From NCBI GenBank assembly GCA_016215625.1, contig JACRIW010000058.1, forward strand, positions 96,252-160,251: a stretch of DNA of 64,000 nt. Direction: 5' to 3'. The number at the start of each line of letters is the position of its first letter. Within the stretch, counting starts at the first letter, position 1. The position numbers and the translations under genes were made by a program. Below are positions 25,154-51,200 of this stretch, one piece after another. The notes beneath the pieces were generated by a model. It did not search any database and was not told where the DNA came from. It saw only the letters and a list, made by a program, of their open reading frames with translations. The DNA comes from Candidatus Eiseniibacteriota bacterium (GTDB taxonomy: Bacteria > Eisenbacteria > RBG-16-71-46).

Positions 25154-25380
25154 GGTATCCGCGTGGTTGAAGGGAAGGGGCTCGCCGCGTTCACGTGGGA
25201 GGGTGGCGAAACCGGCGGCAGTGTCGCCGTGCCCCTGCGGGCAGTCAAGGAAACCGGCGAGCCTGCGTTTCTCTTGCATTCCGCCGTAGCGAGGCCCGCG
25301 CGCGGCACGCTACACTGGCCGCCGCGCGACCGGGCTCGGCGTCATGGGGACGCCGCACGGTCGCGCTCCCTTTTCCCCTC

Positions 25381-28300
25381 ATGCGCGTAACGCTCGCCAC
25401 GATCGTCCTGCTGCTCGCCGCGGCCACCGCCGCCGGCGCCGCCGCGCTCGACCTGCCGGTCTCCCGGCCGGACAGCCCGATCGCGCCTCCTTTCTATCGC
25501 GGCGACGTGATCGAGCTGCAGCTGGCGCCCGCCGCCGCGAGCGCCGCACGCGCCACGCGCACCGCGCTCACGCGCGCATCGGCGAGTCCGCGGGGCGGTG
25601 TGACCGCGCAGCTCGGCGTGGGAGCGGTGGACGCGGTCGCTTTCGCGCTCGGCGCGCGCGGCTTCGAGCCCGAATTCGTGGGCGAGACGCCGGGTTCGGG
25701 CGGCACCGACCTGAGCGCGTTTCACGTCGTGCACCTCGGCGCGGGCGTGTCGCTGGAGGACGCGCTCGATCGCTTCCGCGCGCTGCCCGAAGTGCTGAGC
25801 GCGGACCCGATCGCCGTGCTCCCGGTTTCGGCCGCGCCACCGGACGACTCGCTCTTCGCGCGCCAGAAGTGGATGTACGAGTGGACGACGCCGCGCCACG
25901 ACGACCGCGCGCTCGACGCGTGGGACGTGCAGCGCGGCGACACGTCGATCGTCGTGGGCATCCTCGACACGGGACTGCTCGCGTGGCACCCGGACCTGGG
26001 CGGAACGGCCGCGGGCGGGCACGGCAACCTGTTCGTGAACTGGGCCGAGGCGGGCGGCGTCGCGGGTGTGGACGACGACGCGAACGGCTTCGTGGACGAC
26101 GTGAGCGGCTGGGACTTCGTGGACTCGCTCGGCTTCTCGGTGCCGACGGGCGAGGACGGCTCGGGCAAGGACAACGACCCGAGCGACGTGGCCGGCCACG
26201 GCACGGCGGTCTCGGGCATCATCGGTGCGCTGGTGCACAACGCGAGCGGCATCGCCGGCATGGTGCCCAACGTGCGGCTGCTGCCGGTGCGGTGCGCGTA
26301 CGCGACCGGCGTGCGTCCGGCGGCGGGCGTCGACATGCTCGCCGCGGCGCGCGCGATCGCTTATGCGACGCGCATGGGCGCGAGCGTGCTCAACTGCTCG
26401 TGGGAGTCGCTCGACCAGAACGGCCTCGGGGCCGCGGTCACGAACGCCGTGCGCGCAGGCGTCGTGTTCGTGAACGCGTCGGGCAACCGCATCTCGTCGG
26501 GCACCTATCTCGGCCAGCGCGAGGACGTGATCTCGGTCGCGGGCGTCGACAGCACGGACGTCATGTGGGCGAACAGCACGCGCGGCACGTGGCTCGACCT
26601 GTGCGCGCAGGCGGTCGGCATCACGAGCACGTTCGTGCAGGGCACGGGCCCGGACTCGCTCGGCTATCGCCAGCCGGACTACCGCGGCGGCCTCGTGGGC
26701 ACGTCGTTCGCCGCGCCGCAGGTGACGGGCGCCGTCGCGCTCATGCAGGCGCAGCGCCGTGCGCAGGGGCGCGATCCGTACACGGCGATCGGCGCCGCGC
26801 TGCGCGTGCGCGAGACGGCGGACGACCACCACGCGATCAACCCGCTCTACCTGAACATCGGTACCGGACGGCTCAACGTGCTGCGCGCGCTCACCGATCC
26901 GCCGACGTCGTTCGCGACGCGCACGAAGGCGCGCAGCGTGGGCGCTCCGGTCGCGCTGCGGCTCAACGACGGCACCTCGCGCGTCGTGTTCGCGACGAGC
27001 GATCGCCAGCTGGTCGCACTCGAAGGTGCGTTCGGCGACACGCTCTGGCGCGCCGCGCTGCCGAACGCGCCCGCCGGTCATCCGGCGGCGGCGCCGATCG
27101 GCAACGGCCGCATCGGCATCTTCGTGGGCTGCGCGGGCGGCATGATCGCCGGCTTCGACGCGAACGGCGCTGCGCTGCCGGGCTGGCCGCGCACGGGGCT
27201 CGGAGGCACGCTGGTCGCGAGCGTGGGCGACCTCGACGGCGACGCCGTGCCCGAAATCGTCGCGGTGTCGTCCGACGGCGTGGTCTGGGCGATGCGCACG
27301 AACGGCGCGGTGCTCGCGGGATTCCCGTACGTGAGCGGCGTGCTCGGCGGCTCGGTCGCGCTCGCGGATCTCGACGCGCAGCCGGGACGCGAGATCGTGT
27401 TCCTCGACGGCAACTCGGTGCTGCACGCGTTCACGTCCGGCGGCGCCGAACTGCAAGGCTGGCCGGTCGCGGCGCCCACGGCGTCGCGCGCGCCGATCGT
27501 GGTGGCGCTCGGCACGCGGCGCGAGACCGCGGTGATCGTCGCGGGCAGCGGCCGCATGGACGCGATCACGGCCGCGGGCAACGTCCGCTGGTCGAACACC
27601 TACACCGGCAATCCCTCGCAGGACCCGATCGCGGGCGACCTCGACGGCGACGGCGTCGACGAAGTGCTCGTCGCGATCAGCAATCCGCTGCAGCTGCGCG
27701 CCGTGGACTCGAGCGGCGTCGCGCTCGCGCGCACGGGCTGGCCGCTCACGCTGACGGCGGCGCCCGGCGGCGCGCTCGTCATGGGGCCGATGATGAACGG
27801 CGGGCGCGCGTGCGTGGGCTGGTTCACGAGCGCGGGCTTCGTCGCGTACGACGACAGCGCCCGCGCCGTGCCGGGCTTCCCGCGGCCGGGACTCGCGGGC
27901 GTGGCGCCGAACGTGTCCGAGCTCGACGGCGACGGCGCGACCGAGATCGCGATGGGCGTCGCGACCGGCGACTCGGCGTTCTACGCGTTCGACGCGGGCG
28001 CGGCCTCGTGGAACGCCGCCAATGTCTTCTGGCCGACCGTGCGTGGCGACAACGCGCGCACGGCCGATCGCAGCAGTCCCGGCACGATCGCGCCGCTCGA
28101 CGTGACGCGCCCGGCGCCGGTCGCCGACGTGCTCGCGCAGGCGACGGGGACGAGGAGCGCGCGCGTGACCTGGACGATGACGGGGGACGACAGCCTCACG
28201 GGCCGCGCCGCGTCCGTGGACCTGCGCTACACGACCACGCCGCTCGACGAAACGAGCTTCCTGCTCGCCGCGCAGTGGCCGGTGGGCACGCCCGACAGCA

Positions 28301-29058
28301 GCGGCGCGCTCATGCAGGCGGACGTCACCGGGCTGCAGGAAGGACGCACGTACTTCTTCGCGCTGCGCGTGCGTGACGACGCGGGGCTCGCGAGCGCGCT
28401 GTCCAACGTGGACACCGTGAGAACGCCGGGCCTGCGGCCCGGCCCGGTGACCGACCTGCGCGTCGGCGCACTGCGCGACACCGTCGTCACGCTGCGCTGG
28501 ACCGCCACGGGCGACGACGGCGCGTCCGGCCGGCCGGACCACTACACGATCGTCGCGAACCTGGTGCCGGTCACGGACGGGAACTTCGACGCCGCGCCCA
28601 TGCTCTGGCAGCGCGCCGCCACCGCGGACGCGGGCGCGCCCGAATCGCTCGTCGTGAACGGCCTCGCGCGCGGCAAGCGCTGGTACTTCGCGCTGCGGGC
28701 GACCGACGCGGCGCTTTCGACCTCGGACCTTTCGAACGCCGTGAGCGTGGTGACGCCGATGGGTGGCGCGCTGGGTGCGCGCACGGGGCTCGCGCTCGCG
28801 CCCTCGTCGCGCCCGTCACGGCTGCCGGTGGTCTTCACGTGGCAGCTCGGCGACGCCGCGTCGGGTCCGGCCGTGCTTTCGCTCTACGACCTCGGCGGGC
28901 GGCAGGTGCTGCGCGTGCGGCTCGCCGGCGAGCTGGGCGGGACCTGGGAATGGAACGGCCGGGACGCAGAGAGTCGCCTGGTCCCGGCCGGTCTGTACTT
29001 CGCACGCCTCGAGAGTGGCTCCCGCCACACCGAGACGCGCGTCGTACTGCTGCGTTGA
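25381..29058 (+). CDS. Secreted subtilisin-like (S8) protease with propeller, FnIII and sorting domains
   Basis: 1225 residues from the ATG at 25381, giving a signal peptide (LATIVLLLAAATAAGAAA). An inhibitor-like propeptide is followed by the S8 core with an intact triad: Asp196 (VVGILDTGLL), His273 (VAGHGTAVSG) and Ser442 (LVGTSFAAPQ); the oxyanion Asn is in NASGN. Residues about 520-890 hold FG-GAP/PQQ-like propeller repeats (VGDLDGDAVPEIVAV, GDLDGDGVDEVLVAI, SELDGDGATEIAMGV). Two FnIII domains follow (about 900-1120). The C-terminal FlgD-like Ig module (LYDLGGRQVLRV, GLYFARLES) ends RVVLLR, so export through the Por-like route is likely. A TACACT box at 25311 is a candidate -10. Confidence 0.9.
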   Translation: MRVTLATIVLLLAAATAAGAAALDLPVSRPDSPIAPPFYRGDVIELQLAPAAASAARATRTALTRASASPRGGVTAQLGVGAVDAVAFALGARGFEPEFVGETPGSGGTDLSAFHVVHLGAGVSLEDALDRFRALPEVLSADPIAVLPVSAAPPDDSLFARQKWMYEWTTPRHDDRALDAWDVQRGDTSIVVGILDTGLLAWHPDLGGTAAGGHGNLFVNWAEAGGVAGVDDDANGFVDDVSGWDFVDSLGFSVPTGEDGSGKDNDPSDVAGHGTAVSGIIGALVHNASGIAGMVPNVRLLPVRCAYATGVRPAAGVDMLAAARAIAYATRMGASVLNCSWESLDQNGLGAAVTNAVRAGVVFVNASGNRISSGTYLGQREDVISVAGVDSTDVMWANSTRGTWLDLCAQAVGITSTFVQGTGPDSLGYRQPDYRGGLVGTSFAAPQVTGAVALMQAQRRAQGRDPYTAIGAALRVRETADDHHAINPLYLNIGTGRLNVLRALTDPPTSFATRTKARSVGAPVALRLNDGTSRVVFATSDRQLVALEGAFGDTLWRAALPNAPAGHPAAAPIGNGRIGIFVGCAGGMIAGFDANGAALPGWPRTGLGGTLVASVGDLDGDAVPEIVAVSSDGVVWAMRTNGAVLAGFPYVSGVLGGSVALADLDAQPGREIVFLDGNSVLHAFTSGGAELQGWPVAAPTASRAPIVVALGTRRETAVIVAGSGRMDAITAAGNVRWSNTYTGNPSQDPIAGDLDGDGVDEVLVAISNPLQLRAVDSSGVALARTGWPLTLTAAPGGALVMGPMMNGGRACVGWFTSAGFVAYDDSARAVPGFPRPGLAGVAPNVSELDGDGATEIAMGVATGDSAFYAFDAGAASWNAANVFWPTVRGDNARTADRSSPGTIAPLDVTRPAPVADVLAQATGTRSARVTWTMTGDDSLTGRAASVDLRYTTTPLDETSFLLAAQWPVGTPDSSGALMQADVTGLQEGRTYFFALRVRDDAGLASALSNVDTVRTPGLRPGPVTDLRVGALRDTVVTLRWTATGDDGASGRPDHYTIVANLVPVTDGNFDAAPMLWQRAATADAGAPESLVVNGLARGKRWYFALRATDAALSTSDLSNAVSVVTPMGGALGARTGLALAPSSRPSRLPVVFTWQLGDAASGPAVLSLYDLGGRQVLRVRLAGELGGTWEWNGRDAESRLVPAGLYFARLESGSRHTETRVVLLR

Positions 29059-36593: not shown

Positions 36594-39500
36594 ATGGTTC
36601 GAAGCTCCGCGCGGTTCGCGTCCTCCGCGCTCGCGGTGGCGTTCCTCTCGCTCTTCGCTGCGCCGCTCGTCGCCGCGCCGGTGACCGACTCGGCGCCCGC
36701 ACCAGTGCCGGCCCGCACGGCGGCGGCCGACGTCCGGCTCGCGCCCGCGACGCCCGGATCGGTCCGCTTCACGGTGCCCGTGCCCGAGCCGGCCTTCGTG
36801 ACGCTCGATCCGCGCGAGAAGCTCGTGCGCATGGACCTGCCCGGCTACGCCCTGCGCGGCGAGGGCGGCGGTCCGGCGCTGCCGGTGCGCATCCTCACGG
36901 TCGCGGTGCCGCCGCTCGGCGACGTGCGCGTGAACGCCGTGGCGAGCGACCTCGCGACGCAGGAAGACCTGACGCTGTCGCCGCAGCCGGTGGGGGAGAA
37001 CGCGGCGATCCCGGCGCGGAACCTCGCGCGCTACGGCGTCGCGGGCAGCGCGACCCCGGTCGCGGCGCGGCTGCTCGACGTCACCTGGGTGCGCAACCAG
37101 CGCATCGCCTACATCGAGATCTCGCCGGCCGCGTACGAGCCGGCCGCGCGCCGGCTCACGCTCGCGCGCCGCGTCGACGTGGACGTGCAGGTGCAGCCGA
37201 TGGGTGCACTCGGCGCGCCGGTCGAGCCGGACGATCCGTTCGAGCCGGTCTACCGCCAGTCGCTCGTGAACTACGAGCAGGGCAAGGCGTGGCGCCGCAC
37301 CGACACGCGCACGCTGGCCGCCGCCGCGCGCCGCATGGGGCTGACGCCGCAGGCCGCGCAGATCGTGACCGTGCCCACGACGAGCCGCTTCGCCGGTCAC
37401 ACGTGGATCAAGTTCGCGGTGCAGGAGGCCGGCTTCTACACCGTGGACTTCTCGAGCCTGCGCGGCCTCGCGCTCTTCGCCGACGGCTCCGAGGTGAACT
37501 TCGACCGGTTGCGTCTCGTGACGCTGCCCGGCTACCCGATCATTCCGCAGGACAGCTTCTGCGACACGTGCGACTACCGGCAGGTCGCGATCGGCACGTT
37601 CGACACGAGCAACCCGGCGCCGCCGACGAACGCCGCGGCCGACGGCAAGTTCTCGTGGAACACCGACTACTTCTACTTCTTCGCGCAGGGCCCGAACGGC
37701 TGGGCGGACGACTTCGACGCGTCGCTGCCGGACACGCTCTACCTGAACCACCCCTACGACAAGAACAACTACTACTACCTCACGTTCGTGCCCGTGGGAG
37801 ACGACACGTCGCTCGGCGCGCCGCTGCGCATCGCGACGGCGGACGGCACGCTGCAGCCGGGCGCGAACCCGGTGCCCGTGACGACGACGCTCGAGCGCGC
37901 GCACTTCGAGCGCGACCTGACCTACGCGCCCGACGCCACGCCGCGCACGAGCACGCTGTTCTGGGAGAAGTGGTTCTGGACGATCATGTCGCCCGGCAAC
38001 TCGCTCCCCGTGACGGTGGACCTGCCGTACGCCGACACGACGCAGGCGGCGCGGTTCCGGCTGCGCCAGTGGGGGCTCACGGACAACTCCGAGTTCGGCA
38101 ACTGCCCCGACGACGAGCCCGACCACTACCTCGACGTCACGGTGAACGGTTCGGCGCTCGCGTTCCCGCGCGCGCGCTGGTTCAGCTTCCTCGCCCGCCG
38201 CGGCGGGCAGGTGACGCTCGACACGACCACCACGTTCCTGCGCCGCTACGGCAACGCCGTCAACGTCCTCGTGCCGTCGGTCTCGACGCCGAACTGCCCG
38301 GGCCGCGTGGACAAGAGCGCGCTCGCGTGGTTCGAGATCCACTACCAGCGTTTCCTCAAGCCCGAGAACGACCAGCTCGAGTTCCACTCGCCGGCTGCCG
38401 CGGGCACGTTCCACTACGAAGTCGGCCCGTTCGTGCGCTCGCTGCTGCCCCGGCTCTTCGACGTGACCGATCCGCTGCAGCCCGTCGAGATCACGGTGCC
38501 GGCGGGGCAGTGGACGCAGGCGGGCGACGGCTGGCATCTCGCGTTCGACGCCGCGCAGTCCGGTGAGCGCCGCTTCCGCGTGCTCGCCGACTCGCTCGTG
38601 ACGCTCGCGCGGCTCGCCCGCACGAACATCGCGGACGCGCCGTTCACGAGCCTCCAGGACCTGCGCGCCACGGACAACGCCGCCGACTACCTCGTCATCT
38701 ACTACGACGCGTTCAAGGCGGCCGCCGAGTCGCTCGCGGTCGCGCGCACGCAGCGCCTGCCGCTCACGGGCACCGGGCCGTTCCTCACGAAGGCGATCCC
38801 CGTTTCGGCGCTCTACGACCAGTTCTCCGGCGGCCGCACCGACCCGGCCGCGATCCGCAACTTCCTGCGCGCCGCCTACTACAACTGGAGCACGCGCCCC
38901 ACGTTCGTGACGCTGCTCGGCGACGCCTCGTACGACTTCAAGAACCTCTCGGGCCGCGCACCGGCGGGGCAGCCCGGCACGCTCGTGCCGACCTATGAGA
39001 ACGGCTTCGACGACAACTACCGGCTCAAGCGCCAGTTCGCGACCGACGACTGGATGCTCAACGTCGACGCCGCGAGCTCGACGCTGTTCATTCCCGAGTT
39101 CTTCGGCGGCCGCCTGCCCGCGAACGACGCGGCGACCGCGCTCGACGTGGTGCGCCGCAAGGTGCTGCTCTACGAGACGAACGTGCCGTACGGCGAGTAC
39201 CGCAACGACGTCATGCTGATCGCGGACAACGACCTGCAGGGCGAGAACTGCGATCCGCTCGGCTGGACGCACGTGAGCCAGACCGACGAGCTGAACCGCA
39301 ACCACATTCCGGCGCACGTGGATCGCAAGTACGTCTACCTGCACACGTACGCGAGCGGCCCCGGCGGTTCGCGTCCCGGCGCGCGCTCCGAGATCCGTTC
39401 GACGCTCGACTCGGGCGTCGGCCTGTTCAACTTCGTCGGCCACGGCAGCCCATTCAAGATCACGGACGAGAGCGTGTTCATCGACTCCGACGCCGGCACG

Positions 39501-40997
39501 CTCGCGAACGGCACGCGCATGCCGGTGTTCGTCGCGGCGTCGTGCGACGTCGGCAAGTTCAACGACCCGACGTTGCAGTCGCTCGGCGAGCAGCTCGTCA
39601 TGACCGGCACGGGCGGCTGCGTCGCCGTGATCTCGGCGACCGAGCAGGCGTTCAGCTCGGACAACAGCCAGCTCAACAAGTACCTCTACGACCAGATCTT
39701 CGATCGCGCCGATCTCGTCGTGAACGGCATCACGCTTTCGGGCGCGGGCCAGTATCACGTGCCGCTCTCGGCCGCGCTGCTGTCCGCCAAGATCAGCGCG
39801 CCCGGCACCGGCCCGACGAACAACGCGAAGTACCAGCTCATGGGCGACGCGGCGACCGTGCTGAACGCGCCGCGCCTGTGGGCGGACGTCACGCTCACCG
39901 ACGCGGGTGGCGTGCCGCTCACGAACCTGCAGCGCGGCCAGACCGTCACCTTCCGCGGCGCGGTGGCCGAACGTCCGCTCGGCCCGGCGATCCCGTTCGA
40001 AGGTGTCGCGAGCCTGCTCATCGAGGACTCCGCGCCGGAGTCGAACACCGGGACCGAGCCGCCCTGCACGTACTACTCGGTGGATTTCCGCTACAAGCCG
40101 GGCGTCGTCTATCACGGCGACGTGAGCATCTCGAACGGGCAGTTCGAAGGGCGCTTCGTGGTTCCGGTGGACGCGACGCTCGGCGCGACCGGCCGCGCGC
40201 GCGTGTACCTCCAGGGCACCTCGGGCGCCAGCGGTGTCGCGCTCGACGGCGCCGGCGCGGTCGTGACGGGCTACGTCGCCGGCACGCCGAACCCGAACGA
40301 CACGTCGCCGCCGCGCATCACGCTGTCGTTCCTCGGCGGCTCGTCCGCCGTGCGCCCGGACGCGACGCTGCGCGCCGACCTGTTCGACGAGAGCGGCATC
40401 ATGACCACCGGGCACGCGCTGCAGAACTCGATCGTCGTGACGATCGACGACAACACCACCTCGCGCGTGGACATCACCTCGAGCTTCCGGTACGCCGCCG
40501 ACTCCTACCAGCAGGGGACGGCCACGTTCACCCTGCCGGGGCTGTCCACCGGGCGGCACAAGATCAAGGTCAGCGCCGCGGACAACCTCGCGACGGGCAT
40601 CACCGCCTCGCAGCACCGGGCGAGCGCCGAGATCGAGTTCGACGTGGTCGACACCCCGCGCCTGAGCATCGCCCGGGCGTACCTGTTCCCGAACCCGATC
40701 GCCTCCGGCGGCTCGGGAAGTGGCGGTACGTTCGTCGTGGACGCGCCCGGGGACTCGGTCAACACGCTGATCAAGATCTACACGGTGAGCGGCCGGCTGG
40801 TCCGCACGCTCACCCATCGGGGTGCGCTGGGGCAGGTGCAGCTCAGCTGGGACGGCCTCGACGCCGAGGGCGAGCCGCTCGCCAACGGCACCTATCTCTT
40901 CAAGGTGTACGCCAACGGCCGGGAGGCCGATGGAAGCAGCAGCGCCACACAGAAGGCATCGGCCCAGGGCCGGTTCGTGGTCGTGAATCGCCGTTGA
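36594..40997 (+). CDS. C25 (gingipain/PorU-type) cysteine peptidase with sorting domain
   Basis: 1467 residues from the ATG at 36594, with a signal peptide (SALAVAFLSLFAAPLVA). An N-terminal propeptide-like region (to about 270) and a beta-rich region precede the C25 catalytic domain at about 690-1080. FVGHGSPF carries the catalytic His950 and FVAASCDVGKFNDP the catalytic Cys984, the pair that defines gingipains and the sortase PorU. An Ig-like domain follows. The C-terminus is a FlgD-like fold (FPNPIASGG, IYTVSGRLVRTL, WDGLDAEGEPLANGTYLFKVY) ending RFVVVNRR. In Bacteroidetes PorU removes the sorting domain of cargo and links it to A-LPS at the cell surface. The PorV-like gene next door supports a PorU-type role, although bona fide cargo proteases have the same fold. 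Confidence 0.88.
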   Translation: MVRSSARFASSALAVAFLSLFAAPLVAAPVTDSAPAPVPARTAAADVRLAPATPGSVRFTVPVPEPAFVTLDPREKLVRMDLPGYALRGEGGGPALPVRILTVAVPPLGDVRVNAVASDLATQEDLTLSPQPVGENAAIPARNLARYGVAGSATPVAARLLDVTWVRNQRIAYIEISPAAYEPAARRLTLARRVDVDVQVQPMGALGAPVEPDDPFEPVYRQSLVNYEQGKAWRRTDTRTLAAAARRMGLTPQAAQIVTVPTTSRFAGHTWIKFAVQEAGFYTVDFSSLRGLALFADGSEVNFDRLRLVTLPGYPIIPQDSFCDTCDYRQVAIGTFDTSNPAPPTNAAADGKFSWNTDYFYFFAQGPNGWADDFDASLPDTLYLNHPYDKNNYYYLTFVPVGDDTSLGAPLRIATADGTLQPGANPVPVTTTLERAHFERDLTYAPDATPRTSTLFWEKWFWTIMSPGNSLPVTVDLPYADTTQAARFRLRQWGLTDNSEFGNCPDDEPDHYLDVTVNGSALAFPRARWFSFLARRGGQVTLDTTTTFLRRYGNAVNVLVPSVSTPNCPGRVDKSALAWFEIHYQRFLKPENDQLEFHSPAAAGTFHYEVGPFVRSLLPRLFDVTDPLQPVEITVPAGQWTQAGDGWHLAFDAAQSGERRFRVLADSLVTLARLARTNIADAPFTSLQDLRATDNAADYLVIYYDAFKAAAESLAVARTQRLPLTGTGPFLTKAIPVSALYDQFSGGRTDPAAIRNFLRAAYYNWSTRPTFVTLLGDASYDFKNLSGRAPAGQPGTLVPTYENGFDDNYRLKRQFATDDWMLNVDAASSTLFIPEFFGGRLPANDAATALDVVRRKVLLYETNVPYGEYRNDVMLIADNDLQGENCDPLGWTHVSQTDELNRNHIPAHVDRKYVYLHTYASGPGGSRPGARSEIRSTLDSGVGLFNFVGHGSPFKITDESVFIDSDAGTLANGTRMPVFVAASCDVGKFNDPTLQSLGEQLVMTGTGGCVAVISATEQAFSSDNSQLNKYLYDQIFDRADLVVNGITLSGAGQYHVPLSAALLSAKISAPGTGPTNNAKYQLMGDAATVLNAPRLWADVTLTDAGGVPLTNLQRGQTVTFRGAVAERPLGPAIPFEGVASLLIEDSAPESNTGTEPPCTYYSVDFRYKPGVVYHGDVSISNGQFEGRFVVPVDATLGATGRARVYLQGTSGASGVALDGAGAVVTGYVAGTPNPNDTSPPRITLSFLGGSSAVRPDATLRADLFDESGIMTTGHALQNSIVVTIDDNTTSRVDITSSFRYAADSYQQGTATFTLPGLSTGRHKIKVSAADNLATGITASQHRASAEIEFDVVDTPRLSIARAYLFPNPIASGGSGSGGTFVVDAPGDSVNTLIKIYTVSGRLVRTLTHRGALGQVQLSWDGLDAEGEPLANGTYLFKVYANGREADGSSSATQKASAQGRFVVVNRR

Positions 40998-41128
40998 TGG
41001 CAAGGCGCGTCCGGTCCCCGGATGCCGCCGTCCGTTACAGAAAGGTGGAACTGCCGGGGCGGGGCCGGTGTAGTATGCCGCGTCCGAAATCCCGCCCGGC
41101 GGGGCAGTGCCCACCAGAGGAGTGTTCG

Positions 41129-42079
41129 ATGCGTCGGTTCAACTCGTTGCTGCTCACCGTGCTGTTCGTTCTCGGCGTGGCCGGTACGGCCTTCGCGCAG
41201 GGCACCGGACGCTCGCTCGACATCCAGCCCGGCGGGCGCCAGAACGGCATGGGCGCCGCGGGTGTGGCCCTCGACGAGGACGCCACCGGCGTGACCTGGT
41301 GGAATCCGGCCGGACTGGGCTTCGTGAACAAGTCCGCGGTCGAGGTCACCTACGCCCAGCTCGTGCCGGGTCTCGCGAGCGACGTGAGCTACAACTACGC
41401 GACGTACGTGCACCCGATGTCGGGTGGCGGCGCGTGGGGCCTCGGGCTCGTGTTCCTGTCCTACGGCCAGAGCGATCGCACGAACGAGTCGGGCACGGTG
41501 CTCGGCCAGTTCGGCTCGAACGAAGTGTCGCCGGCGCTGTACTACGGCCTGAAGCTGCTGCCCGAGATGTCGGTCGGCGCCTCGCTCAAGTTCATCCGCA
41601 TCCAGCTCGCCCCGGACGACCTGTCGGGTGTCGGCTCGACGTTCGGCCTCGACGTCGGCGCGCTCTACCGCATCCCCGCCGCGAAGCTCCGCCTCGGCAT
41701 GAACCTGCAGAACTTCGGGCCGAGCGTGACGTTCCTGAACGAGGACCAGAAGAGCCCGCTGTCGCGCAACCTCAAGGTGGGCGCGGCCTGGCAGGCGATG
41801 ACGGGCAAGGACTTCAACCTGCTCACCGTCGCCGACTTCAACCAGTCGCTCGTGACGAACAAGTTCCGCACGTACAACGTCGGGCTCGAACTGCAGTACA
41901 CGGACCAGATCGCCGGCCGCGTCGGCTACTACTCGGATCCGCTCGGCGAGATCAAGGACCTGACCTACGGCCTCGGCCTCGGCTGGAAGGCCGTGAGCCT
42001 CGACTATGCGAGCATTCCGCAGGCGCGTGATTCGGGGCTGCCGAACGTCAACAAGATCACCCTGGGCTACCACTTCTAA
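41129..42079 (+). CDS. PorV/PorQ-family outer-membrane barrel protein
   Basis: 316 residues. AGAGGAG precedes the ATG at 41129; the track ORF begins far inside the previous gene in a shadow frame. A signal peptide (LLTVLFVLGVAGTAFAQ) is followed by the hallmark GGRQNGMGAAGVALDEDATG with TWWNPAGLGF after it, shared by PorV, PorQ and UPF0164 proteins of the FadL-like barrel class. Alternating beta strands run to the C-terminal LGYHF, an aromatic-terminated last strand. In type IX secretion PorV shuttles cargo from the translocon to PorU. It lies 131 bases after the C25 gene. A TAGTAT box at 41071 may give it an extra promoter. Confidence 0.87.
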   Translation: MRRFNSLLLTVLFVLGVAGTAFAQGTGRSLDIQPGGRQNGMGAAGVALDEDATGVTWWNPAGLGFVNKSAVEVTYAQLVPGLASDVSYNYATYVHPMSGGGAWGLGLVFLSYGQSDRTNESGTVLGQFGSNEVSPALYYGLKLLPEMSVGASLKFIRIQLAPDDLSGVGSTFGLDVGALYRIPAAKLRLGMNLQNFGPSVTFLNEDQKSPLSRNLKVGAAWQAMTGKDFNLLTVADFNQSLVTNKFRTYNVGLELQYTDQIAGRVGYYSDPLGEIKDLTYGLGLGWKAVSLDYASIPQARDSGLPNVNKITLGYHF

Positions 42080-42087
42080 GAAACCGC

Positions 42088-45000
42088 GTGCACTCCCACC
42101 CGAAGTTTCGCCGCGTTTTCCTGGTGTTCGCTGCGGCCGCGCTGGCCCTCTCGGCCGGCGCGGCCGTGGCGCATGATGCGGACCACGGCGCGCTGCAGGT
42201 GCGGCGCGTGCTGCCGTCCGAGGCGGCCGCGCGCGCGAAGGTGCCCGCGCGTGCGATGACGCCGGCCGAGCGCCGGCTCGCGAAGCTCCGTGAGGACCGC
42301 CAGCGGCTCGTGCTGCCGATGAAGCAGCAGGCGATGGCCGCCGGCCGCGACATCGACCGCTCGCTGTCCGCCTCGCGCCGCAAGGGCTGGCGCGCCCCGC
42401 TCGGGGGCACGAGCCCTCGAGGGGCGTACCGCGCCGACGTGGTCGCGCCGCCGGACACCGTGCGGATGGCGTTCCTGCGGATCGACTTCCTCGCCGACCG
42501 GGGAGGCAACGCCTCGACCGGCGACGGCCGCTTCGACCTGAGCGGGCCGGACACGCTGCTTCCGCCGATCGACCGCGCGCCGCACAACAAGCGTTTCTAC
42601 GACATGCACGCGCGCGCGCTCGAGCGCTACTACGAGACGCAGTCCTACGGCCGCGTCGTGCTGCAGATCGACGTGTGGCCGGCCGAGTCCGACAGCGCCT
42701 ACCACCTGAGCGACATGGCCGACCTCGGGCCGTGGGCGTTCGGGCAGGGCGTGTACCGCGCCGCCGTCGACATGTTCCGGCAGATGTTCTTCGCGGCCGA
42801 CTCGCAGTCCACCGCGAAGGGGCAGCGCATCCCGTGGGAGACGTACGACCGCTTCATGGTCATCCACGCCGGCAGCGACCTGCAGAGCGACCTGCGCCAG
42901 GACTCGAACGAGGACATCCCGTCCTTCACGGTGTTCCTCGACGACACCGACCGCGTCGTGTTCCCGGACTCGGCGGAGTGGAACCTCGACCGCCCCATCG
43001 ACCGTGCGGCGTTCATTCCCGAGACGATCAACCAGGACGGCTACTACGGCGCGATCAACGGCGTGATCGCGCACGAGAACGGGCACAACATCTTCGGCTT
43101 TCTCGACGTCTACAACATCGACTCGGGCTATCCCATGTGCGGCTACTGGTCGCTCATGGACAGCGGCAACCTCGTCGGCTCGCGCGTGCTGCTCGCGGAC
43201 GACACCGAGATCTACGCGGTCGGCCTGCTGCCGCCGAGCATCGATCCGTTCCAGCGCAACTTCATCGGCGACGGCATGCGCATCGACGTGCCCACGTGGG
43301 GCGACACGCTCGAACTGCGGCGCAACCAGACGCACAACCAGTTCTACAAGCTGCCGCTCTCGAGCGACGAATACGTGCTGCTCGAGAACCGCTTCCTGTC
43401 GCCGGCCGACACGCTGCTCAAGCTCGACTCCGACAGCGTGAGCCGCGTGATTCTCGGGCCCGAGCTGCCGGACCGCTACGAGTACGACGCCCTGCTTCCG
43501 GGCGGCGGCATCCTCGCGTGGCACGTGGACGAAAGCGTCGTGCCGTTCGAGTGGTCGCTGCGCACGAATCCCGACTACGGCCTGAACACGAACTACTCGC
43601 GGCAGGGACTCCAGGTCCTCGAGGCCGACGGGCTCGACGACCTCGGGGACCCCGGTTCGCCGTACCTGCTCGGCAGTCCGCTCGATCCTTTCCAGCGCAG
43701 CGTGAATCCGTCGCTCTCGGATTCGACCTCGCCGAGCCTCGTCGCGAACACCGGCACGCGGCCACACGTCCGCGTGGACTTCCTCGACGACGCGGCCGAA
43801 GTCATGCGCTTCAGCGCGAACCGCACCTGGAACCTCGCCGCGTTCCCGCGGGTCGCGAGCTTCCCGCCGGGCGGCCCCGAACTGCTCGCCATCGACGCCG
43901 ACGGCGACCGCAACCTCGAGGTGTGTTGGGCCGGGGGAGACACGACGGGCGCGGACAGCGCCGCGGTCTTCGCCATTCGCACGAACGGCAACGGCCTGCT
44001 CGGCCCGAGCCCGGTGCTCGCACGTCTGGACCGCCGGCCGCTGCCGATGATGGCGGCCGCGCTGATCGGCGATCCCGATCTCGGCGCCGGTCCGTCCGTG
44101 TTCGCGGTCACCACGCGCCCCGTGAGCGCTTCCGACACGCTGGGTGGACGCGTGTGGCTCCTGAACGCATCCGGCGCCGCGTTGCCCGGATGGCCCGTGC
44201 GGCTTCCCGCGCACGCGACCACGCCGCCGGTGCTCGTCGGCACGTACCCGAATCTCGTCGCGTACGTCGGCGCCGCCGACGGCAAGGTCTACGGACTCTC
44301 GTACACGGGCCAGGTGCTGGGCATGACGAGCTTCGCCCTCGAAGGCGGAGTGAGCGGCAGGCTCGCCGTGGCCGGTCCGCTGTCGCCCGTGGCGATGCCC
44401 GGGCCCGGCACGGGCTCGATCGGCAGCGGCTACGCCTACCGCATCGCGGTCGGCGGCTCCGCGGGCGACCTCGCGGTCGCGCCCGCGATCGACGGCGCGC
44501 TCGGGCCGACGCTCGCCGGATGGCCGCAGCGCATCGGCGGCGCCGGTTTCGCGCCCGACTTCCTCTGGCTCAAGTTCGGTGGCAACGGCGCGAACGCCGA
44601 GGGCAACTGCGCCGACGGCGCGCCCTCGCTCGTCGCGCACCATGCCGACAAGCTCTGGGCGTTCTGCTCGACCGGCGCCCCGCTCGCGGGCTGGGGCGGC
44701 TCGTTCGGGGACACGATCGTGGCCGGTCTCGGCGCGGGCGATCCGGACGGTGACGGCTTCCCCGAAGTGCTCGTGCAGACCATCCACTCCCGCGTCGCGT
44801 TCGTGAACCGCAACGGCTCGCCTTCGCCGGGCTGGCCGCGTGCGAGCACGAGCGAGGCGCTCCCGACCGCGAGCAGCGCACTCGCGCTCGACGTCGACCA
44901 GGACGGCCGCTCCGAGGTCGTCGTGCTCAACGGCAGCGGCATGCTCGTCGCGCTCGGCACGACGGGGAAGAGTTACGTCGGCTGGCCGCTCGCGACCGGC

Positions 45001-45498
45001 GCGGGGGCGAAGGGCAGCGCGCTCGCCGCCGATCTCGACCGCGACGGCCGTCTCGACCTCGTGGCGCCCGACCGCGACACGCTGCTCTACGCCTACCGTC
45101 TCCCGGTGCCGCTCAGCGACGTGGTCGCCTGCTCGTGGACCATGCCCGGCGGCGATCCCGGCCGCAGTTCGAGCCTGCCCGACGTACGCACGCCGCTCGC
45201 GCGCGCGAGCAGCGCCGGTCCGCTGGTCGCCGGAAGCTTCAAGGCGTTCCCGAATCCCGCGCGGCTCAAGCCCGTGACGTTCGCATTCACGCTGAGCGAG
45301 GCTTCGGAGGTCGAGTTCCGCATCCTCGACGCGTCGGGACACGAGGTCGCGTCGTTCACGCGGCACGGCGAGCGCGCGGAGAACAACGTCGTCTGGGAAC
45401 CGGGCGCCGTACCTGCGGGCCTGTACGTGGCGCGCGTGAAGTTCTCCGGTCCGAACGGCTCGCAGGTCGCGACCGTACCCGTGGGGCTCCTCCGATGA
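42088..45498 (+). CDS. Secreted M6-type metalloprotease with propeller and sorting domains
   Basis: 1136 residues from a GTG eight bases after the PorV stop. The signal peptide is FLVFAAAALALSAGAAVA. Residues about 120-520 are an immune-inhibitor-A (M6) catalytic domain: IAHENGHNIFGFLDVYN gives His329, Glu330 and His333, and YWSLMDSGN is the met-turn-like segment seen in M6 enzymes. Residues about 590-990 are FG-GAP/WD-like propeller repeats (AIDADGDRNLEV, GAGDPDGDGFPEVLV, DVDQDGRSEVVVL). The FlgD-like C-terminus (FKAFPNPARLKPVTF, ILDASGHEV, PAGLYVARVKF) ends VPVGLLR. It is probably a cargo of the Por-like pathway encoded just upstream. Its stop overlaps the next start in ATGA. Confidence 0.9.
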   Translation: MHSHPKFRRVFLVFAAAALALSAGAAVAHDADHGALQVRRVLPSEAAARAKVPARAMTPAERRLAKLREDRQRLVLPMKQQAMAAGRDIDRSLSASRRKGWRAPLGGTSPRGAYRADVVAPPDTVRMAFLRIDFLADRGGNASTGDGRFDLSGPDTLLPPIDRAPHNKRFYDMHARALERYYETQSYGRVVLQIDVWPAESDSAYHLSDMADLGPWAFGQGVYRAAVDMFRQMFFAADSQSTAKGQRIPWETYDRFMVIHAGSDLQSDLRQDSNEDIPSFTVFLDDTDRVVFPDSAEWNLDRPIDRAAFIPETINQDGYYGAINGVIAHENGHNIFGFLDVYNIDSGYPMCGYWSLMDSGNLVGSRVLLADDTEIYAVGLLPPSIDPFQRNFIGDGMRIDVPTWGDTLELRRNQTHNQFYKLPLSSDEYVLLENRFLSPADTLLKLDSDSVSRVILGPELPDRYEYDALLPGGGILAWHVDESVVPFEWSLRTNPDYGLNTNYSRQGLQVLEADGLDDLGDPGSPYLLGSPLDPFQRSVNPSLSDSTSPSLVANTGTRPHVRVDFLDDAAEVMRFSANRTWNLAAFPRVASFPPGGPELLAIDADGDRNLEVCWAGGDTTGADSAAVFAIRTNGNGLLGPSPVLARLDRRPLPMMAAALIGDPDLGAGPSVFAVTTRPVSASDTLGGRVWLLNASGAALPGWPVRLPAHATTPPVLVGTYPNLVAYVGAADGKVYGLSYTGQVLGMTSFALEGGVSGRLAVAGPLSPVAMPGPGTGSIGSGYAYRIAVGGSAGDLAVAPAIDGALGPTLAGWPQRIGGAGFAPDFLWLKFGGNGANAEGNCADGAPSLVAHHADKLWAFCSTGAPLAGWGGSFGDTIVAGLGAGDPDGDGFPEVLVQTIHSRVAFVNRNGSPSPGWPRASTSEALPTASSALALDVDQDGRSEVVVLNGSGMLVALGTTGKSYVGWPLATGAGAKGSALAADLDRDGRLDLVAPDRDTLLYAYRLPVPLSDVVACSWTMPGGDPGRSSSLPDVRTPLARASSAGPLVAGSFKAFPNPARLKPVTFAFTLSEASEVEFRILDASGHEVASFTRHGERAENNVVWEPGAVPAGLYVARVKFSGPNGSQVATVPVGLLR

Positions 45499-46283
45499 AG
45501 CGACTCTCGTTCGTCCTGCTGCTGGCGGCGATGCTGGCGGGCGCCACGACCGCCGGCGCCGAAGTGCGCGCCTGGTCCGAACTGGCGCTGCCCGTCGTGG
45601 ACGCCGCGCCGGCCCGGGGAAGCGAACTGCTCGCGCAGCGCGTCATCGACCGCGAGTGGGGGCTCTCCGAGGACTCGGTCTACACCGAGGTGACGGTGCC
45701 CGGCTGGAAGAGCGAGGGCGTCGCCATGGCGCTTTCGGCCGGCCTACCCGGCGCCGGACAGCTGTACGTGGGCGAGGGCAGCGGCTGGGCGTTCCTGCTC
45801 GCGGAGGCGCTCGGCTGGGCCGGGCGCGCGTTCACGAAGAGCGAGGCCCGGCAGGCCGCGCACGACGCCACGGCGTTCATCGGCAATCCCTACGACACCA
45901 CGGCCGGCTGGTCGTTCGAGCGCTGGGAGCGCGCCACGGGCGGCAACTCCTCGACGCTCGAACAGTACTGGGCGTACGACCGCGAGGCGTTCTACCAGGC
46001 GCTGCGCAACGATCCGGTGTACCTCGCCGGGTTCGATGGGCAGCAGCCCGAGGAGACGTTCCGCTCCTACCGGGACCTGCGCAACACGCGCGACACCAAC
46101 CTGCGCCGCGCGCATCTCGCCGAGGGACTTCTCTGGGTCAATCACGTCGCCGCCGCCATCGACGCGGTGCGCGCGGCGAGGCTGCACAACCTGCCGCTGC
46201 GGCAGGAGTACCAGCTGCAGCTCGGGCAGCGCATGCGTGAGGGTCAGCGCGAGTTCCACGCCGCGCTGGTGCGGAGGTTCTGA
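45495..46283 (+). CDS. Exported DUF5683-like protein (first of two)
   Basis: 262 residues from the ATG at 45495, overlapping the M6 stop. The signal peptide is LSFVLLLAAMLAGATTAGA. The central motif SAGLPGAGQLYVGEGSGWAF and the following hydrophobic helix (LLAEALGWAG) resemble DUF5683-type proteins, in which a P-G-x-GQ-x-Y segment precedes membrane hairpins. The rest is helical and charged, with a second helix (GLLWVNHVAAAIDAVRAARL). Function unknown; members often sit next to outer-membrane genes. The next gene appears to be a diverged paralogue. Confidence 0.65.
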   Translation: MKRLSFVLLLAAMLAGATTAGAEVRAWSELALPVVDAAPARGSELLAQRVIDREWGLSEDSVYTEVTVPGWKSEGVAMALSAGLPGAGQLYVGEGSGWAFLLAEALGWAGRAFTKSEARQAAHDATAFIGNPYDTTAGWSFERWERATGGNSSTLEQYWAYDREAFYQALRNDPVYLAGFDGQQPEETFRSYRDLRNTRDTNLRRAHLAEGLLWVNHVAAAIDAVRAARLHNLPLRQEYQLQLGQRMREGQREFHAALVRRF

Positions 46284-46285
46284 TC

Positions 46286-47212
46286 GTGCGTCGCGCGCTC
46301 GCACTCGTGCTGCTGCTCGCCGTACCCGCGGCTTCGTTCGCGCAGGACTTCACCGCGTTCGGTCCGCGCCCGGTTTCGCCGTTCTCCGTGCCGCTCGATC
46401 CCGCGGCGCCGCCCGCGCCGGAATGGCTCGCGACCACGGTCGCGCCCGAGATGCTCTCGCCGCTGACGCTCGAGGTGCGCAGCCTGAGCTCCGACAAGCC
46501 GGCGAAGCCGAAGAAGGAGAAGAAGGGCAGGAAGAAGAAGGACGAGAAGCCGAAGCCGGCGCAGCCCGCCGGCATGGCGCTCGGTCCGGAGCGTGCGCGC
46601 ATCCTGCTGCGCTCGCTCACCGTGCCCGGCTGGGGACAGGCGACCATGGGACGGCGCACGTCGGCGAAGTGGTTCGTCGCCGCGGAGGCCGGTGTGTGGA
46701 CGGCGTTCGGCGCGTTCCGGGCGCAGGAGGTGATGCGCCGCGAGAGCGCCATGCGCACGGCCCGCCTGGCGGCGGGCATCGACCTGCGCGGCCGTGACGA
46801 GGAGTTCCAGCGCATCGTCGGTTCGTTCGTGAGCAGCGAGGAGTACAACCTGCTCGTGGTCGCGCGCGACGCGGCCAACATCTACCTGCTCGATCCCTAC
46901 CACCCGGACATGGAGGGCTACCGCGCGTACGTCGCGGCGCACTCGCTGTCGGGAGCGGATGCGTGGAACTGGGGGTCGCTCGAGTCGTTCCGGAAGTATT
47001 CCGCACAGCGCAAGGACGCGAATCGCGCCGGGCTGCGAGCGAACACCGCGATCGCGGTGGGCATCGCCAACCGCATCGCGAGCGCCATCCATGCGGCGCG
47101 CGCCGCGGGCCGCGCGCCCGCGGTCGAACCGCCGCGCAGCTGGAACTTCGAAGTGACGCCCGACCCTCGCGACGGCGACGCCGTGCGCGCGGGCCTGCGC
47201 GTGACCTTCTGA
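46286..47212 (+). CDS. Exported DUF5683-like protein (second of two)
   Basis: 308 residues from the GTG at 46286, eight bases after GGAGG. A signal peptide (LALVLLLAVPAASFAQ) is followed by a Lys-rich low-complexity stretch (KPKKEKKGRKKKDEKPK, residues about 72-90). The core SLTVPGWGQATMGRRTSAKWF and the helix after it (VAAEAGVWTAFGAF) repeat the pattern of the preceding protein (LPGAGQLYVGEG...FLLAEALGWAG), and the C-terminal helix NTAIAVGIANRIASAIHAARAA matches its partner in position. The Lys stretch could contact lipopolysaccharide, peptidoglycan or nucleic acid; this is speculation. Confidence 0.65.
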   Translation: MRRALALVLLLAVPAASFAQDFTAFGPRPVSPFSVPLDPAAPPAPEWLATTVAPEMLSPLTLEVRSLSSDKPAKPKKEKKGRKKKDEKPKPAQPAGMALGPERARILLRSLTVPGWGQATMGRRTSAKWFVAAEAGVWTAFGAFRAQEVMRRESAMRTARLAAGIDLRGRDEEFQRIVGSFVSSEEYNLLVVARDAANIYLLDPYHPDMEGYRAYVAAHSLSGADAWNWGSLESFRKYSAQRKDANRAGLRANTAIAVGIANRIASAIHAARAAGRAPAVEPPRSWNFEVTPDPRDGDAVRAGLRVTF

Positions 47213-47229: not shown

Positions 47230-48213
47230 ATGCGGCCGGCCGTGCTGATGCTGGCGGCGATGCTGTCGTGCGTGGTGCCGGCGCAGGCGGGTGCGGCGTA
47301 CTCGTGCGCCGACACCCTCGTGCTCGCGGGAGCCGACGGGGTCCTCGTGGAACCCGCGGGTGTCGCCGTGGACGCGTTCGGCCGCGCGTGGGTCACCGAC
47401 GCCGCACGCCACCGCCTGCTGCGCTTCGACGCGAACGGCACCCGGCTCGACGAAGCGGGCGCGCTCGGCAGCGAAGTCGGGCAGTTCCGCCGTCCCGGCG
47501 CGCTGGCCGCGTGGGGCGCGAGCGCGATGGCGGTGCTCGACCGCGAGAATCGCCGCGTGGTCGGCTACGACACGCACGCGCGCGGTGCACAAGTGCTCGT
47601 CGATCTCGCTTCGCCCGCGCTCGACGCCGCGCTGGGACGCGTGGACGGCGTCGGGCTCGGCTCGGACGCCGGTGGCGCGCTCTACGTCGCGGACGCCGAC
47701 CGCGACCGCATCCTCGTCTTCGACTTCGCGGGCGCATTCCAGCGCGCGATCGGCGGCTACGGCAGCGGCGCGGGCGCGTTCCGCCATCTCGTCGCGGTGG
47801 CGTCGGCCCCCCGTGGCGCCCTCGTCACGCTCGAGTGGCTCGCGGGCGGCAAGGTCCGCGGCAGAGGCGGCGCACGCGACAGCGTGCGCGCGGCGCAGGT
47901 GCGCGTGCAGTGGCTCGACGCTTCGGGCGCCTCGCTCGGGCATTGGGAGCTTCCGGGCGGCGACGCCGACCGCTGGTCGCTCGCGGTGGACCCGGTGCTC
48001 GCGCGCGTGGTGCTCGCGGAGGGGACCAGCGGAAAGTTGTGGCGGTTCGAACTGCGCGCGGGTTCGCTCGCCCAGCCGCTCGCGCGTGTCACGCGTCCCT
48101 CGGCGCTCGCGTTCTCGGCCGACGGCTCGCTCGTCGTCGCGGAGCCGGGCCGGCTGCTGCGATTCCCGCCGAAGTGGGACGGCGCGTGCGACCCCGGCCC
48201 GGCCGAGCGCTGA
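47230..48213 (+). CDS. Exported NHL-repeat beta-propeller protein
   Basis: 327 residues from the ATG at 47230 with GGGAGG upstream; the track ORF starts inside the previous gene. A signal peptide (VLMLAAMLSCVVPAQAGA) precedes about six NHL-type blades: PAGVAVDAFGRAWVTDAARHRLLRFDANG, then YVADADRDRILVFDFAG, and WSLAVDPVLARVVLAEG. NHL propellers usually bind proteins or ligands and have no fixed enzyme role. The gene overlaps the large barrel gene by 28 bases, so the two are probably made together, and it may be a periplasmic partner of that barrel. Confidence 0.78.
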   Translation: MRPAVLMLAAMLSCVVPAQAGAAYSCADTLVLAGADGVLVEPAGVAVDAFGRAWVTDAARHRLLRFDANGTRLDEAGALGSEVGQFRRPGALAAWGASAMAVLDRENRRVVGYDTHARGAQVLVDLASPALDAALGRVDGVGLGSDAGGALYVADADRDRILVFDFAGAFQRAIGGYGSGAGAFRHLVAVASAPRGALVTLEWLAGGKVRGRGGARDSVRAAQVRVQWLDASGASLGHWELPGGDADRWSLAVDPVLARVVLAEGTSGKLWRFELRAGSLAQPLARVTRPSALAFSADGSLVVAEPGRLLRFPPKWDGACDPGPAER

Positions 48214-51200
48214 TCGCGCGCAGCGCCGCACGCGGCGCCGCGATCGGCGCCACGGCGCTCGCGCTGGTGCTCTCGCTCGCTTCGTCCGCGCGCGCCTCCG
48301 TCGTGCGCGACCCCGCGTGCGGGGACGCCGTATTCGTCGCGGGCGAAGGGGCGCGGCGATTCCGGCTTCCGCACACGGCCATCCGCGCGGGCAGCGATTC
48401 CGTCTGGACCACGCGCGGCGCGCTCGTGCGCGGGCGCGACTACCTGCTCGATCCGCTGCGCGGGGACCTGCGCGTGCTCGCCGCGCTCGCGCCGGGCGAG
48501 TCGCTCTGGGTGCGAGCGTGCTGGCTGCTCGACCCGCCGCCGCAGTCGTTCGCGCGCCAACTGTACGCGCCCGCGCCACGGCAGGCGCCCGAAGGAGCGC
48601 CGCCACCCGACACCGGCGCCGCGGCGGCGATCGCGCGCCCCGCGACCGGTCGCGATCTCGGACAGGCGCCCGGGGGCGCGGCGCTCGCGGTGAGCGGCAA
48701 CAAGACGGTGGCGGTGGAGTTCGGCTCGTCGCAGGACGCGGCGCTGCGCCAGTCGCTCGACCTCGCGGTGAGCGGCACGCTCGCGCCGGGCGTCGAGCTG
48801 ACCGGCGTGCTCACCGACCGCAACCTGCCGCTCTCGGCGCAGGGCAGCACGCAGGACCTGCAGTCGCTCGACCGGGTGCTCATCGAGCTGAAGGCGCCGC
48901 ACCTCGCCGCGAGCCTCGGCGACGTGCCGCTGACGCTCACCGCGGGCGAGTTCGGGCGGCTCGACCGGCGCGTGCAGGGCGTGCGCGGCGAGTGGTCGCA
49001 GGGCGGCGTGCGCGGCTCCGTCGCGGCGGCGAGCGCGCAGGGCGAGTTCCACCGCATGCAGTTCGCCGGGGCCGACGGCCTGCAGGGGCCGTACACGCTC
49101 ACCGATCGCGAGGGTGGCACCGGCATCACCATCGTCGCGGGGAGCGAGGCCGTGACGCTCGACGGCGCGAAGCTCACGCGCGGCGAAGGCGCGGACTACG
49201 TGCTCGACTACGAGCGCGCGCGGCTCACGTTCTCGAACCGCCGCCCGATCACGAGCGCCTCGCGCATCACGGTCGAATACCAGTACGCGCTCACGCGCTA
49301 CAAACGCAACATCGCCGCCGCCTCGGCGGGCGTGGAGCGCGGAGCGGTGTCGCTGTTCGTCTCGGCGATCACGGAATCGGACGACCGCGGGCGGGCGCTC
49401 GACGTCACGCTCGACGAGGCCGACCGGCGCGCGCTCGCCGCGGCCGGCGACGCCGCCGCGCTCGCGGTCGGGCCGGGCGTCACGTACGGCACGGGTGACT
49501 ACGACAGCGTGCGTGTGGCGGGCGACACGCTCGCGTACGCGTATGCGGGCCCGGACTCGGGCGCGTTCTCGGTGCGCTTCGTGCGCGTCGCCCCGGGCGC
49601 GGGGGACTACGCCGACTCGAGCATCGTCGCGGGGCGCACGACCTACCGTCGGGTCGGCGCGGGCCGCGGCTCGTTCGTGATCGGCCGGGCGCGGCCGCGG
49701 CCCGAGCAGCGCCAGCTGGTCGCGCTCGGCGTCAGCGCCGGCCGCGGCGCACTGCGCCTCGAAGGGGAGGGCGCGCTCTCGCGGCGCGACCTCAACACGG
49801 CTTCGGTGCGCGACGACGCCGACAACGTCGGCGGCGCCGGCCGCCTGCGGCTCTCGCTCGAGGGGGCGGCGCCGCTGCTTCCCGGACGCGCCGGTGTGCA
49901 GTTCGCCGCGCGGTCGGTGGAGAAGCGCTTCGCCTCGTTCGCGACGCTCGAGCGGCCCTTCGCCGAGGAGGACTGGGGCCTGCCGGTGGGCGCGGACCTC
50001 GAGCACCAGAAGCGCGGCGAGGCGAGCGCCTGGTGGCGGCCCGCCGAACGCGCCGAACTGCGCGGCGAGTTCGCGGCGCTGTCCACGGCGGACGGGTTCG
50101 AGGGCACGCGGCGCCGGGCGGAGTGGACGAGCGACCGCTGGATCATGCTGCGCGGCTCGTGGCTCGACGCCGAGGGCACGCTCGCCGCGCGCCGCCATCC
50201 GGACGGCGGGCGCCGCCGCGCGCAGTTCGAGGCGAAGCGGCCCGGGCGCGTCCTCACGCCGTCGCTCCGGCTCGAGCACGACCTGCGGCGCACGCCCTCG
50301 GACTTCGCACTCACGCGCGACACCGGTGACGAGTGGGCGGCGGACCTCGCGAGCGGCTCGGCCGCGCGCTGGCGCTGGAGCACGGGGTTCGGCGAGAGGC
50401 GCGACCGCCACGAAGCGGGCGCGATCACCGTGACGCGTGCCCGCGTGCTGCGCGCCGGTGGCGAGACTCCCGCCGGGCGTGCGCTCGGCGCGAGCGCGCA
50501 GCTGCAGCGCCGCATCGTGCGCGACGAGGGCTCGGGCGCACGCGCGACCTCCGACCTCGCGAGCGCGCGGCTGCGCGCGGACCAGCCGAAGTGGGGGCTG
50601 TCGGGCGAGGCGAACGTCGAAGTGACGGGCGAAGCCGAGAACCGCCGCGTGCGCGCGCTGTCGTTCGTCGGGGCGGGGCGCGGCGCGTACGACGCGCTGG
50701 GCAACTTCGTCGGCACGGGCGACTACGACCTCGTGCTCACCGTGAGCCCCGAGCTCGAGCGCTTCGCGCGCGTCGCGACGAGCCTGCGCAGCGGTTGGCG
50801 CTTCGGCGAGTCCGACGCATGGCGCGGCTCGCGCGTCGAGTTCGCGCTCGAGACCGAGGCGCGCCGCCGCGGTGAACTGCGCGCCACCGACGTGCTGTTG
50901 TCGACCGGGCTGGCGCTCGTCGATCCCGCACTCGCCCGCGGCGCGATCGCGCAGCGGCTCGAGGCCGAACTCGCGCCCGGCTCGCGCCTGGCCGCGATGC
51001 GCCTGCGCGCGGAGCGGCGCGTGAACGCGGACCGCAGCTACGAGAACTTCGCGCAGACCACCGATCAGCGCACGGGCTCGCTGCGCTGGCGCACGCGTTC
51101 GGGCGCCGCGGTCGTGATCGAGAGCGAGGGCCGCGTGCAGTGGCAGCGCGCGACGCAGGCGTTCGCGAACGGCGCGGCGTTCTCGCGCGCCGTCGTGGAT

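Follow-up and report, generated by a model that had tools for sequence, protein, structure and literature searches.

The window analysed here, a stretch of 64,000 nucleotides, lies within contig C32 of a Candidatus Eisenbacteria genome with 70% GC (4.2 Mb in 123 contigs, 93% complete). GC along the window ranges from 68 to 77%. Two neighbouring plus-strand genes were investigated, a C25 cysteine peptidase of the PorU type (36594-40997) and an outer-membrane carrier barrel of the PorV type (41129-42079). Relatives of the C25 protein were collected via a family-level alignment; the broad PorU alignment contained no stretch conserved enough for scanning. In named genomes 15 of the 17 related loci belong to Candidatus Eisenbacteria (up to 77% identity), and the remaining two, the most distant, to Cloacimonadota (24-26% identity). 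The distribution within the phylum was examined with 47 Candidatus Eisenbacteria genomes, 26 of them near-complete. When signal peptides were checked for the 'Q-rule' of Bacteroidetes, Q was found in 6 of 57, which is uninformative. Elsewhere in the window (25195-29058) a probable secreted protease is encoded, a subtilase (S8) that also contains beta-propeller and fn3 regions.

The peptidase ORF begins with ATG and encodes 1467 amino acids with a signal-peptide-like segment at the N-terminus. Propeptide_C25, Peptidase_C25 (PF01364, E 3.5e-68) and a C-terminal FlgD_ig were identified as Pfam domains. The motifs GHGS (residues 949-952) and AASC (residues 981-984) include the catalytic dyad of His950 (codon 39441-39443) and Cys984 (codon 39543-39545), which is invariant in all 30 aligned sequences of the phylum. 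A C-terminal sorting-type domain (CTD) is located at 40683-40922 (TIGR04183, 26.6 bits with a cut-off of 23; FlgD_ig, 5e-12).

With the curated PorU equivalog NF033707 this protein reached 457.7 bits, above the cut-off of 420; the genome's two further C25 proteins, on contigs C63 and C94, scored 73 and 130 bits. A profile of 16 phylum sequences searched against the PDB had the solved PorU 6za2 as best match with 467.8 bits, aligned across chain residues 285-1154 (about 870 residues). Catalytic dyad and propeptide are shared with the gingipains, which are C25 cargo proteases. In contrast to PorU, gingipain chains were matched in the same search over short stretches only, with at most 64.9 bits. 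The maximum-likelihood tree calculated for the C25 catalytic domain, with no gingipains included, has long branches and unresolved deep nodes and weighs little either way. The model and profile scores support a PorU-type sortase, for which CTD cleavage and transpeptidase activity are predicted.

The second ORF begins 131 bp 3' of the first and encodes 316 amino acids. It was matched by the Pfam PorV model (7e-15) and by the NCBIfam PorV/PorQ family model NF033709 with 187 bits (cut-off 90). The strict PorV equivalog gave 129 bits, below its cut-off of 250, and the protein is assigned to the PorV/PorQ family only. A sequence search of the PDB found PorV at 4e-17. The AlphaFold model (pLDDT 82.5, pTM 0.78) was compared with the PDB by Foldseek, and the best matches were 8gl6_F and 6h3i_F, PorV of the Flavobacterium johnsoniae translocon (TM 0.78 and 0.76, E 7e-17 and 2e-13). 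FadL proteins ranked below PorV with E 2e-9 and weaker. Hence, family model and predicted fold support a PorV-type barrel. The genome contains 13 PorV-family matches, seven of them above the family cut-off. Since the window copy scores below the equivalog cut-off and at least seven family members are present, it need not be the sole or main carrier; several PorV-type carriers may exist in this genome. The highest-scoring member (199 bits) is encoded on contig C104 (L117:16764-17774), where TolQ of the tol-pal locus is about 7 kb away.

A former sequence-only reading of this DNA had described a C25 dyad in a signal-peptide protein, directly followed by a PorV/PorQ-family barrel, in a host outside the Bacteroidetes. 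These three statements were confirmed, the last by the phylum of the source genome and of most relatives as well as by the GC content, and the outer limits of the gene pair (36594 and 42079) agree with those given there. The assignment of the peptidase to PorU and not to the cargo gingipains agrees with the equivalog and PDB scores.

The conserved gene cluster around porU and porV

Throughout the phylum PorU and PorV are followed by a series of genes, first one for an M6-like protein, then one or two for small conserved proteins, and finally those for an NHL protein and a large protein rich in beta structure. In the window all these genes are located on the plus strand. The M6-like metalloprotease (42088-45498) contains FG-GAP repeats as well as a sorting-type domain at the C-terminus, and is probably cargo. 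Its HEXXH motif, HENGH at 43072-43086, is intact in all copies with a readable region. With 132 of 600 bits, the nearest NCBIfam model is one for a T9SS-dependent M6 protein that is inactivated, whereas HEXXH is kept here. A small conserved secreted or membrane protein is encoded at 45495-46283, identified by phylum-wide synteny and with a weak likeness to DUF5683 (PF18935 only at E 0.05). BLAST clustering groups it with the second conserved protein (46286-47212). The NHL-repeat beta-propeller protein (47230-48213; PF01436, 6e-10) is likewise syntenic.

The last gene, 48216-51578, encodes a large beta-rich protein predicted for the outer membrane. Its start codon is uncertain; no ATG was found and the ORF was taken from the preceding stop onward. 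TIGR04189 matched at 3e-4, corresponding to SprA positions 601-651, and the profile-profile comparison with SprA of the phylum gave a probability of 96.8%. The shared module comprises about 50 residues and occurs in two copies; the control with the reversed sequence was negative. Phylum-wide, the protein with this module is found beside PorUV. Fold matches of its structure model were set aside, as the model was poor (pLDDT 46.8).

In Parabacteroides distasonis porV is located directly after porU, the same order as in the window.

SprA translocon and sorting-domain proteins

SprA/Sov is encoded on contig C69 of the same genome with 478 bits (both stretches) at a cut-off of 200, and 490 bits for the ORF. 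The solved SprA was matched at 4e-26. Within the phylum SprA was detected in 46 of 47 genomes at E<=1e-3 and in 38 above the cut-off; for PorU the numbers are 47 and 32. Genomes that fell short of either cut-off are mostly fragmented assemblies. The genes on either side of SprA encode an M28 peptidase, NusA and IF-2, and a permease-like protein. In most of the phylum the M28-family peptidase (L082:14985-15902) is located immediately 3' of SprA, and it starts with FGPRV, presumably like M28-type glutaminyl cyclases.

The sorting-domain model TIGR04183 gave 145 matches in the genome at E<=0.01, approximately 115-120 of them above the cut-off. As this model is close to the general fold FlgD_ig, a part of the 145 may not be cargo. 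In general, the genome likely encodes more than 100 T9SS cargo proteins with CTD, for which secretion is predicted from sequence. Five matches lie in the window, at 8425-8667, 16249-16452 (minus strand), 21025-21237, 40683-40922 (inside PorU) and 45247-45447, all borderline with 21.8-26.6 bits at a cut-off of 23. Thus, the nearby sorting-domain proteins formerly suggested as cargo were found again as candidates.

Search for the motor components

The 47 genomes of the phylum were also searched for the components of the motor. GldM/PorM was above the cut-off in none of them; the best match, 14.8 bits, is noise that was also obtained with controls without T9SS. GldL/PorL was likewise above the cut-off in none, with 18.4 bits at best and similar noise in nine control genomes. 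GldN/PorN was not matched in any of the 47 genomes even at E<=1, and this model matched no control genome either. For GldK/PorK no genome exceeded the cut-off, and the source genome gave no match; partial matches in the phylum covered the C-terminal half only, in the style of general sulfatase-modifying enzymes. All control genomes for these models are without T9SS, and the reach of the models beyond Bacteroidota is uncalibrated. The sequence-only reading had asked for HMM searches of the whole genome and had tied its claim to the presence of PorL/PorM or SprA. SprA/Sov was found, whereas PorK, PorL, PorM and PorN were not found above the cut-off. Thus, a complete canonical T9SS is not established. 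Since no protein of the PorKLMN type was recognised, export might be powered by a motor that diverged past the models, or else by a PMF machine of general use (ExbBD-TonB or Tol).

The chances are nearly even that the T9SS is a canonical one, of no unusual mechanism, with PorLM and PorKN present and too diverged for the TIGRFAM models. Compared to Parabacteroides, which reached 1170 bits for PorU, 509 for PorV and 3177 for SprA with the same models, the Eisenbacteria proteins reached approximately 39% (458), 25% (129) and 15% (490), respectively. Such divergence is in favour of an overlooked motor, as are the faster divergence of small membrane and periplasmic proteins and the failure of the GldN model in the control genomes. 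As a possible positive control for the motor models, about 75% of the Parabacteroides distasonis replicon bearing SprA, PorU and PorV was inspected, and no gldKLMN gene is listed there. However, at 15-39% of the Bacteroidota score, tens of bits would be expected for GldM, GldL and GldN in some of the 47 genomes, an expectation made with Bacteroidota motor scores outside the comparison. The values obtained were 14.8 bits, 18.4 bits and no match.

It is also quite conceivable, at somewhat less than even chances, that the translocon is powered by another complex (ExbBD-TonB or Tol) or works without a dedicated motor. The only stator-type complexes found in the genome are ExbBD-TonB, TolQ(RA) and MotAB. 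ExbB is accompanied by two ExbD and a TonB-like gene (ExbB-ExbD-ExbD-TonB), TolQ is part of a tol-pal locus with TolA-like, TolB and Pal neighbours, and MotA is located with MotB in a flagellar region. The first two would be available as power source, and phylum-wide PorU, SprA and cargo persist with no recognisable PorKLMN. Furthermore, in F. johnsoniae the motor is dispensable for loading of substrate onto SprA-PorV and is required for extraction and release (PMC10994853). On the other hand, none of the ExbB, TolQ and MotA loci of the genome is near PorU or SprA, no stator-like gene was found in the neighbourhood of SprA, and ExbBD-TonB and Tol have ordinary roles in diderm bacteria.

That the C25 protein is an ordinary gingipain-like cargo protease and the barrel a general UPF0164/FadL-type porin would agree with the cargo-type C-terminal domain, the strict PorV score and the deep nodes of the tree, but this is very improbable, as known PorU also carries a CTD, the PorU equivalog score and the PDB ranking (468 versus at most 65 bits) far exceed what the other two C25 proteins and the gingipains reach, the porU-porV synteny is conserved and the PorV fold ranks over FadL.

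A probable type IX-type secretion system in Candidatus Eisenbacteria

With high confidence, we regard the porU-porV pair as belonging to a genuine type IX-type secretion system in Candidatus Eisenbacteria, in which it forms the attachment or shuttle part. The pair had been proposed as T9SS attachment complex before, and equivalog score, barrel fold, a gene order as in Bacteroidota and SprA in the genome support this. PorU, PorV, SprA and many CTD proteins are recognised in the genome by sequence or fold. The best reading is a real T9SS outer-membrane module with a power source that is highly diverged or borrowed.

By analogy with Bacteroidota, from which localisation, CTD cleavage and the order of transport are inferred, Sec would take CTD-bearing cargo to the periplasm. 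The CTD would dock on a PorV-type barrel within the SprA translocon, which is encoded elsewhere in the genome, and PorV would then move the cargo out sideways. PorU at the surface would remove the CTD and link or release the cargo. Loading of the CTD onto PorV would proceed as in F. johnsoniae, and processing by PorU would take place at the surface.

Descriptions of the T9SS usually centre on Bacteroidota and present it as driven by a motor. With the systems of Porphyromonas gingivalis and F. johnsoniae the Eisenbacteria set shares a PorU sortase, an adjacent PorV-family carrier, SprA/Sov and a large set of CTD cargo. In contrast to these, GldK/L/M/N (PorK/L/M/N) was recognised in none of the 47 genomes, PorU clusters with an M6-like protein, an NHL propeller and a barrel with SprA module, and SprA adjoins an M28 peptidase, NusA and IF-2. 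PorU-type and sorting-domain genes outside Bacteroidota are also reported from other FCB phyla, and the two Cloacimonadota PorU relatives belong here. Neither of these (L111, L112) has a PorV-like gene 3'; in L112 the ORF at 7043-8308, just upstream of the PorU relative, contains GMGN, a PorV-like motif. GldM was not matched in either of the two Cloacimonadota genomes.

An earlier survey reported T9SS to be restricted to Bacteroidetes (PMC4793230). T9SS-like genes are reported for the FCB phyla Gemmatimonadetes, Cloacimonadota, Fibrobacterota and Chlorobiota; Eisenbacteria are absent from this list (PMC11285876). No paper linking Eisenbacteria with T9SS was found in the open-licence literature. 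The PorU-PorV pair itself belongs to an established type; what is possibly new is the set found throughout the phylum with no recognisable PorKLMN.

We propose tentatively, and with more doubt than belief, that in this whole phylum a T9SS translocon, a sortase and a large set of cargo operate with neither the PorLM rotary motor nor the PorKN ring, driven by another PMF machine or none. The outer-membrane module would then be separable from the motor and perhaps older. If this is true, the phylum-wide presence of PorU, PorV and SprA together with more than 100 CTD proteins and no motor would mean that export pore and rotary motor are separate inventions. The 47 genomes would provide a comparative set for the question what energises the release of cargo from its carrier.
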